64,000 bases of DNA. Source: Neofusicoccum parvum (lineage: Eukaryota > Ascomycota > Dothideomycetes > Botryosphaeriales > Botryosphaeriaceae). The notes beneath the pieces are model-generated. The model made no database searches, was not told the DNA's origin, and saw nothing but the letters and a program-made list of their open reading frames with translations. Shown here in pieces: positions 34,994 through 39,946 of the stretch; positions within the stretch are counted from its first letter, which is position 1; each line of letters opens with the position of its first letter. The position numbers and the translations under genes are program-made. Location of the stretch: contig CP087210.1 in the NCBI GenBank assembly GCA_020912385.1, positions 2,666,001 through 2,730,000 of the forward strand, read 5' to 3'.

Positions 34994-36327
34994 TTACAGA
35001 CCCTTCGCATACTCCTCCAAGTACTGCGCAAGCTTCTGAGCTCCTTCCAGGGGAACAGCGTTGTCTGCGGACGCCCATGTTAGAAAGATGGTCTGAAATT
35101 GTATGAGTTGAAGCACTTACAGTTGCTGATTCTGATACCACCAACGCTCCGGTGGCCCTTCAAGCCAGTCAGGCCCCTCTTCTCCGCACCGGCCAGGAAC
35201 TCCTTCTCCTTTGCGTCATCGCCTCCATGCACTCTGAAGCACAGGTTCATCCTGCTCCTGACCGTCTTGTCCGGGACGACCTTGTACACATCCGGATACT
35301 TGTCTAGCACGCCGTACAGCAGCTCAGCCTTCTGGTTCGAGATTTGCTCCTGGCCGCCGATCTTCTGCGCGCCATACGACTGCACGAGGCTCTGCATGAC
35401 CTGGCCCGCAACCCACACGTCAAAGATGGGCAGGGTGTTGTAGAGGGAGTTATTCTTGGCAATGGTCGGCCAGTCAAAGACGATGGGGCCGATAGGGAGG
35501 TCGAGCTGCCTCAGCAGCTCGGGAGACGCGGACGGCGAGTGCGGCGGCAGCAGCGACTTCTTCACGATGACAATGGTGATGCCGGCGTTGCCAATGTTCT
35601 TCTGCGCGCCGCCGAAGATGACCGAGTACTTGCGCACGTCGATCTTGCGGCTGATGAAGTTGGACGACATGTCCGCGACCACCGGCGGCGCGTCCTCGCC
35701 CTCCAGGGCGGCGGGGAAGCCCTGCATCTCGACGCCGTCCACCGTCTCGTTGTCGCAGTAGTAGACAAACGCGGGGCCGGGCTTCCGCGGCGTGAGCGTC
35801 CACTCCGACTCGGCGGGGATCACGCCAAACTTGCCGCCGTTGGCCTTGCGCGCGTCGACGGCGACATTGACGTGCGGCGCGCCCACCAGCCGCGCCGCCT
35901 CCTGCGACGCCTTGAGCGACCACGACCCGGTGACCAGGTAGTCCGCGCGCAGCTCGTCCCGGACCTCCTTGCGCAGGCGCTCCAGGACCTCGGCCTCCCT
36001 GCCCGCGCCCAGCTCCGCCTCGGCGCGGGCTCGCCGCTTCTCCACCCAGATCGACACCATGTTGTACACGACGGCGCTGAACTCGCCGCTGCCGCCGCCC
36101 TGTAGGAACAGGATCTCGTAGTCGTCCGGGATGTCGTAGAGCTTGGTCAGCCCGTCCTTGGCGTCCGCCAGGATCGCGTTCGCCTCGGGCGACCGATGCG
36201 AGATCTCGCAGATGCCGATGCCCTTGTCGTTGTAGTTGAGCAGCGCCGACGCGGCGCGCTCCAGGACGTGCGTGGGCAGCGGCGCGGGGCCCGCGCCGAA
36301 GTAGAAGATGTCTGAGCGGGAAGGCAT
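34994..36327 (-). CDS. SER1: Phosphoserine aminotransferase
   Basis: PLP enzyme converting 3-phosphohydroxypyruvate and glutamate to phosphoserine; serine synthesis. Two exons. Exon 1 is 36327-35121 and ends after the first base of a Tyr codon. Exon 2 is 35064-34994 and encodes NAVPLEGAQKLAQYLEEYAK plus GL and the stop. Together they give 425 aa. The start ATG at 36327 begins MPSRSDIFYFGAGPAPLP, the standard family start. Diagnostic elements are EISHRSPEA, FLQGGGSGEFSAV, VTGSWSLKASQEAA, VADMSSNFISRKIDV, and FGGAQKNIGNAG with the PLP Schiff-base lysine. The C-terminal domain ends KGHRSVGGIRISNY. The intron is 56 nt (GTAAGT/CAG). TGACTC-like sites upstream are listed separately. Confidence 0.95.
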
Positions 36328-37054: not shown

Positions 37055-37162
37055 GGCAACGTGGCCGAGTGGTTATGGCGGTAGACTCAAGTCTCTTGGC
37101 TGCTTCAAGCAGTCTGCATTCTACTGGAGCAATCCGCATGGGTTCGAGTCCCATCGTTGTCA
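37055..37162 (+). tRNA. tRNA-Leu (anticodon CAA), intron-containing
   Basis: Cloverleaf drawn by hand. The acceptor stem pairs GGCAACG with CGTTGTC, with discriminator A at 37162. The D-arm is GCCGAGTGGTTATGGC (A box intact). The anticodon stem pairs GTAGA with TCTAC, and anticodon CAA is at 37088-37090. The long variable arm has stem GGA/TCC. The T-arm is ATGGG-TTCGAGT-CCCAT (B box intact). A 27-nt intron (37092-37118) sits at the canonical 37/38 position. The mature length is 81 nt before CCA addition. Confidence 0.95.
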
Positions 37163-39771: not shown

Positions 39772-39936
39772 GGCGAGGTGGCCGAGTGGTTATGGCGTAA
39801 GTTCCTCACACCACGAGCATCACCTCCAACATTCTCTAACAACCTCAATAGGCTAGTTTCAGGACATCTCTCAAGGGAGTTCCGAAGCGGATTACTAGTG
39901 GAGCAATCCTCGTGGGTTCGAGTCCCACCCTCGTCA
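39772..39936 (+). tRNA. tRNA-Leu (anticodon CAG) with two introns, one spliceosomal-like
   Basis: Acceptor stem GGCGAGG/CCTCGTC, discriminator A at 39936. The D-arm is GCCGAGTGGTTATGGC (A box intact). The anticodon stem pairs CTAGT (39853-39857) with ACTAG (39894-39898), and anticodon CAG is at 39860-39862. The variable arm stem is GGA/TCC. The T-arm is GTGGG-TTCGAGT-CCCAC (B box intact). A canonical 37/38 intron of 29 nt occupies 39864-39892. A second 55-nt insert (39797-39851) separates the D-stem from base 26 and the anticodon stem. Removing both gives an 81-nt tRNA-Leu that lines up base for base with the CAA isoacceptor at 37 kb. The gene is followed by a T5 terminator. It could be a dead gene with an insertion, but every other position is intact. 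Confidence 0.85.
39797..39851 (+). other. Spliceosomal-type intron-like insert in the D-arm/anticodon-stem junction of tRNA-Leu(CAG)
   Basis: 55 nt. It begins GTAAGT (39797-39802), contains a fungal-type branch motif CTCTAAC (39834-39840) with the branch A 12 nt before the 3' end, and ends AATAG (39847-39851). These are the signals seen in the mRNA introns of this window. The canonical tRNA endonuclease intron position (37/38) is separately occupied. Confidence 0.75.
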
Positions 39937-39941
39937 ATATC

Positions 39942-39946
39942 TTTTT
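39942..39946 (+). terminator. RNA polymerase III terminator
   Basis: T5 six bases after the tRNA-Leu(CAG) 3' end, with a further T6 run shortly downstream. Confidence 0.8.

Follow-up and report, generated by a model that had tools for sequence, protein, structure and literature searches.

Putative spliceosomal introns in nuclear tRNA genes of Neofusicoccum parvum, including all detected copies of tRNA-Leu(CAG)

We analyzed a stretch of 64,000 nucleotides (nt) from the fungus Neofusicoccum parvum (contig CP087210.1, positions 2,666,001 to 2,730,000; hereafter the window) that holds a tRNA-Leu(CAG) gene with two interruptions: a canonical tRNA intron between positions 37 and 38 of the tRNA, and an insert of 55 nt between positions 25 and 26. 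The latter is very probably a spliceosomal (GT-AG) intron residing in a nuclear tRNA gene, and one of several such introns that tRNA genes of this fungus would share. The boundaries of the insert, the conservation of its splice signals, and the exact restoration of the tRNA wherever a paralog of the same isotype exists are established from the sequence. All DNA searches covered a single assembly of 44 Mb and 18 contigs.

The anatomy of the window gene agreed with the initial annotation, which had placed the insert at these coordinates with the architecture GTAAGT...CTAAC...TAG and had recognized the separate intron at the standard 37/38 site (Table 1). The A box, the B box, and the downstream T run are all intact. 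At its full interrupted length, the gene scored 34.3 bits against the Rfam tRNA family. ARAGORN identified it as Leu(cag) without the insert and as Gly(ccc) with it, a call that the sequence does not support. Folding of the window pre-tRNA was unremarkable (z-score of -0.98). The initial annotation further claimed that excision restores the exact junction found in the neighboring tRNA-Leu(CAA) gene: the position is indeed the same, but the sequence is not, since the junction GGC/GCTAGT corresponds to GGC/GGTAGA in the Leu(CAA) gene at 37055. That gene spans 37055-37162 on the plus strand, and ARAGORN assigned it to Val(cac), probably owing to its intron.

Searching the assembly retrieved three copies of the Leu(CAG) gene: the one in the window, a second at C17:499762-499927 (91% identical), and a third at C16:428948-429101 (74% identical). 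All three are interrupted at the identical site, by inserts of 55, 56, and 52 nt, respectively, and for all three ARAGORN returned a Leu(cag) cloverleaf with anticodon CAG once the introns were removed. The 13 bases of GTAAGT, CTAAC, and AG, which were chosen as the splice signals for a comparison of alignment columns, are invariant across the three copies (13/13), versus 10 of the 43 other columns (Fisher p = 6e-7). The window and C17 copies do not differ in their exons or in the 37/38 intron, so what has changed between them is the insert body. Meanwhile, in the C16 copy three acceptor-stem pairs are altered on both sides relative to the window copy with pairing kept, according to our reading of the alignment.

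The initial annotation had raised the question of whether intact Leu(CAG) copies exist elsewhere. No insert-free copy was present among the eight places in the assembly that matched the D-arm pattern with at most two mismatches, and the joined exon junction had zero occurrences when one mismatch was allowed. A query with the mature tRNA-Leu(CAG) likewise revealed no insert-free copy; it hit two of the interrupted copies, in exon 3 only, and did not retrieve the remaining one, which shows that this search was not fully sensitive. In seven long open reading frames, not all of which are verified genes, CTG is the commonest leucine codon (149 of 405), and tRNA-Leu(CAG) should therefore matter to the cell.

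The Leu genes are not alone. We took a census of exact occurrences of three B-box forms, GGTTCGANTCC, GGTTCGANCCC, and GGTTCAANTCC, in which no splice signals were assumed. These forms occurred at 89, 52, and 85 places, of which 67, 27, and 74 were examined (167 regions). The places set aside were 22, 17, and 3 that belonged to genes already collected and one in the 3' flank of an Ala gene (L120), and a further 8 and 7 were left out for equal spacing suggesting repeats (12) or proximity to contig ends (3). Regions were filtered for an upstream A box and for base pairing in both the acceptor and the T stem, flanks of earlier loci were included, and interrupted genes were then picked by reading the listed sequences. 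This yielded eight further interrupted tRNA genes of seven isotypes, at seven sites other than that of Leu (Table 1). Pairs of B-box-like matches separated by 1,060 and 4,459 bp were also seen on several contigs, suggesting dispersed repeats.

Together, the 11 interrupted genes are spread over eight contigs, with differing flanks and differing inserts of 49-65 nt. The inserts have GT...AG termini in 10 cases, that of the window among them, the exception being Arg(CCT). A branch-like motif is present in every one (CTRAY in 10, TTAAC in the other), with its A located 9-15 nt from the end. The Leu insert site is not the 37/38 site cut by the tRNA splicing endonuclease (SEN), and by our count the remaining inserts likewise lie elsewhere. 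Apart from two of the Leu copies (W2 and C17) and a weak similarity between C17 and Ser, the insert bodies are no more alike than shuffled sequences; being unrelated, they do not look like one element copied around. These additional GT-AG inserts, along with two more Leu(CAG) copies sharing site and signals, strengthen the spliceosomal interpretation that had been offered from the window gene.

Table 1 Features of the interrupted tRNA-Leu(CAG) gene and of other interrupted or control genes. Two-part coordinates refer to the window; those with a contig label refer to the assembly
Feature	Location	Strand	Details
tRNA-Leu(CAG) gene, two introns	39772..39936	+	Sequence; Rfam tRNA; ARAGORN
Exon 1	39772..39796	+	Positions 1-25; 25 nt
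A box TGGCCGAGTGG	39779..39789	+	RNA polymerase III (Pol III) internal promoter; sequence
Spliceosomal-type insert	39797..39851	+	55 nt, between positions 25 and 26
GTAAGT	39797..39802	+	5' splice-site-like; same in 3/3 Leu(CAG) copies
CTAAC	39836..39840	+	Branch-point-like; same in 3/3 copies; A 12 nt from end by the script's count
AG	39850..39851	+	3' splice site; insert ends TAG
Exon 2	39852..39863	+	Positions 26-37; anticodon CAG at 39860-39862
Canonical tRNA intron	39864..39892	+	29 nt, at 37/38
Exon 3	39893..39936	+	Positions 38 to 73
B box GGTTCGAGTCC	39915..39925	+	B-box scan
TTTTT	39942..39946	+	Pol III terminator-like; sequence
Phosphoserine transaminase, last intron (control, outside the tRNA gene)	35065-35120	-	56 nt; GTAAGT...CTAAC...CAG
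Interrupted U6 copy (L061)	G000:C2:2956570-2956668	-	
Ser(AGA) (L094)			Insert 16/18 (our count)
Ala(AGC) (L120)	G000:C11:1558705-1559045	-	Insert 19/20
His-like (L123)			Insert 20/21
Arg(CCT) (L116)	G000:C10:1506204-1506332	-	Insert 21/22
Val(CAC) (L170)			Insert 24/25
Leu(CAG), three copies			Insert 25/26
Glu(TTC) (L143)			Insert 30/31
Phe(GAA) (L019)			Insert 30/31
Ala(AGC) (L215)	G000:C9:490880-491220	-	Insert 57/58

Removal of the inserts recovered the expected tRNAs. With the insert excised, ARAGORN returned the expected isotype for all 11 genes, one Ala gene having a shifted anticodon. With the insert kept, it returned the wrong isotype for eight and no call for three, an indication that genes of this kind can escape standard tRNA annotation; the Rfam tRNA search of the assembly, in which 63 of 860 candidates were scored, listed one of the 11. 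We also tried all deletions of about the right length and measured the edit distance of each product to a reference tRNA. For the five genes with a same-isotype paralog that lacks the insert, the best deletion gave an edit distance of 0 in every case. The GT-AG register was always among the optimal cuts (5/5), and the other optimal cuts were shifts by shared bases. The three Leu copies, compared with Leu(TAG), reached minima of 5, 5, and 6, again with GT-AG among the optimal cuts (3/3).

The canonical introns of the same genome served as a control. We collected a further 73 distinct, well-formed tRNA genes; because copies alike in the gene and the next eight bases were merged, this number is a minimum. 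Of these genes, 56 had an intron near 37/38 as placed by ARAGORN. None of the 56 introns combined GT..AG with a 5' splice site and a branch motif, although the branch-motif part of this control is weakened because many canonical introns are much shorter than the inserts; a single one had GT..AG in any of six registers. The difference between inserts and canonical introns was significant (Fisher p = 4e-11), also when only nine independent inserts, eight of them GT-AG, were counted (p = 2e-9). Some canonical introns are long: those of the eight listed Gly(GCC) genes measure 48-71 nt, and those of Val(AAC) reach 60 nt.

The inserts were also compared with the mRNA introns of this genome. The pattern GTAAGT-N25..50-CTAAC-N4..20-AG was observed twice in the window, versus 0.08 expected from shuffles, and the two places are the tRNA insert and the last intron of a phosphoserine transaminase gene, which shares the architecture of the tRNA insert. 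The spliced transaminase (minus strand, start at 36327) matches proteins of both Neofusicoccum ribis and N. parvum at 100% identity, after rounding, and that of Botryosphaeria dothidea at 92%, which places the host in Neofusicoccum or very near it. For a second protein of the window, the nearest named matches were from Lasiodiplodia and Macrophomina at 71%, with no named Neofusicoccum among the 120 matches listed. An ab initio search of the window for mRNA introns with a codon model gave only three candidates, and the transaminase and actin-family introns were used instead. In the actin family, seven of eight exon gaps were resolved as GT..AG introns (for example, GTAAGT...GCTAACAACGCCATTAG) by a script that favours splice motifs. 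The eight mRNA introns thus assembled start with GTRAG in seven cases and contain CTRAY in six. TTTT was absent from all 11 inserts and present in three of the eight mRNA introns (p = 0.058), a difference on which we do not rely.

Small structured RNAs of this fungus were inspected as well. One of the three U6 small nuclear RNA copies in the genome carries an insert of 61 nt (GTTCGT...CTGAC...TAG) at CACTAAG/GATGAC, and the other two lack it. No insert was noticed in two U3 copies whose sequences were read by eye. U6 is itself a Pol III transcript.

Several other explanations of the inserts were considered. They could be non-canonical tRNA introns cut by SEN, as in archaea and supposedly some algae. 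Parts of a review on tRNA introns describe non-canonical and multiple introns in algae, including Cyanidioschyzon (PMC4090602), and the genes described here share with the archaeal and algal ones the presence of multiple introns in one gene and of insertion sites away from 37/38. Some registers showed a weak partial pairing near the junctions, in a bulge-helix-bulge test whose 37/38 positive control failed and which we therefore weigh on neither side. In the portions of PMC4090602 and PMC8450103 consulted, however, the archaeal and algal introns are discussed as endonuclease substrates, whereas the inserts of Neofusicoccum carry spliceosomal signals. GTRNGN, CTRAY, and YAG are not known to be required by an endonuclease, yet GT..AG together with a branch-like motif occurs in 10 of the 11 inserts and in none of the 56 canonical introns. 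We therefore regard cutting by SEN as unlikely. Nor is it probable that the interrupted genes have died or are decaying and yield no tRNA, an option that the initial annotation had entertained. The missing 3' AG of the Arg(CCT) insert and the split B box of one Ala gene would fit decay, and we give it a slim chance. Decay is disfavoured by the interruption of every Leu(CAG) gene found, by the rank of CTG among leucine codons, by the conservation of exons and splice signals next to a diverged insert body, and by the compensatory changes that preserve the C16 acceptor stem.

Introner-like elements exist as a class of mobile introns, and small degenerate group I introns could also be imagined; parts of a study of fungal ribosomal DNA (rDNA) do describe putative group I introns of only 56-81 nt (PMC3160393). 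That the inserts are copies of either kind of element is nonetheless very improbable. As a query against the 44 Mb, the 165-nt gene retrieved the three Leu copies alone, in a search that skips very common words, and most of the 11 insert bodies show no relation to one another. In group I introns the 5' exon ends in U and the intron in G, whereas the last base of exon 1 in the Leu gene is C, or G in the other register. Group I families did not reach the gathering score anywhere in the window, where only two tRNA matches reached it. An assembly or sequencing artefact would be the least credible explanation: a single assembly was at hand, but the inserts differ among 11 genes with different flanks on eight contigs.

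Splicing by the spliceosome remains the reading that we prefer, and a number of points weigh against it. Besides the limits already mentioned on the branch-motif control and on the choice of actin introns, all of its support is sequence from one assembly, the census was partial in that three exact B-box forms were scanned, and the three Leu copies share descent. The deletion test covered ten genes, His being left out, and for Val and Arg, where the only references were other tRNA species, the minimum edit distance was 9 and GT-AG was not selected. The Arg(CCT) insert, found in a single copy, has GTAAGT and CACTAAC but ends in CG rather than AG. The B box of one Ala gene (L215) is interrupted by its insert. 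The first exon of the Leu gene measures only 25 nt, and a Pol III transcript does not carry an mRNA cap. Moreover, a Leu(TAG) gene (L052) might decode CTG by wobble. Just downstream of the Ala gene with the split B box lies a perfect B-box-like GGTTCAATTCC, and the same is found downstream of the other interrupted Ala gene. An external B box is known from yeast SNR6, and by analogy the downstream GGTTCAATTCC may serve the Ala genes as one.

There are precedents for spliceosomal introns outside mRNA. Among small structured RNAs, only U3 and U6 of fungi are known to be interrupted frequently, by spliceosomal introns, according to sections of PMC5832005. Like those introns, the tRNA inserts have GT-AG ends and a branch-like site and lie within small structured RNAs, a likeness extended by the interrupted U6 copy of this genome; they differ in that a tRNA has its own splicing system. 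In lichens, nuclear rDNA contains short spliceosomal introns, and parts of PMC8527467 report that one of 57 bp was removed from Pol I rRNA when placed in yeast rDNA. These, too, are short spliceosomal introns in a transcript other than mRNA, differing in that theirs is a Pol I rRNA and here it is a tRNA. The canonical introns processed by SEN and ligase have a representative in the very same Leu gene, from which the 25/26 insert differs by its site and by signals found in no canonical intron of this genome. According to the portion consulted of the paper on tRNAscan-SE 2.0, a eukaryotic tRNA gene holds no more than one intron (PMC8450103), and the tRNA passages of PMC11782384 describe no such case. 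Among the literature matches listed, we recognized no report of nuclear tRNA genes with spliceosomal introns; this coverage excludes preprints and most subscription papers, so that a report unseen by us is possible. One insert pattern had no matches in viral and prokaryotic contig collections, as expected for such collections.

We propose the following route for the maturation of tRNA-Leu(CAG). Pol III would transcribe the pre-tRNA from the A and B boxes, ending at the T run. The spliceosome would excise the 25/26 intron by means of GTAAGT, CTAAC, and TAG, restoring the cloverleaf, and SEN together with ligase would take out the 37/38 intron where one is present. The mRNA-splicing machinery, which is not known to finish tRNAs, is probably needed here to complete these tRNAs as well.

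If the inserts are spliced in this manner, the spliceosome would have tRNAs as a class of substrates, splicing would take place on a transcript that bears no mRNA cap, and two splicing systems would act on one small RNA. The gain of introns in non-coding genes would also become testable, because for four isotypes (Ser, Ala, Glu, and Phe) the same genome contains paralogs that lack the insert. For the biology of this fungus, it seems likely that tRNA genes were repeatedly colonized by spliceosomal introns at several positions. Part of the tRNA pool, including every Leu(CAG) copy found, would then be able to mature only if the spliceosome acted in addition to the tRNA endonuclease, and the translation of CTG, the commonest leucine codon, would be coupled to the capacity for mRNA splicing.
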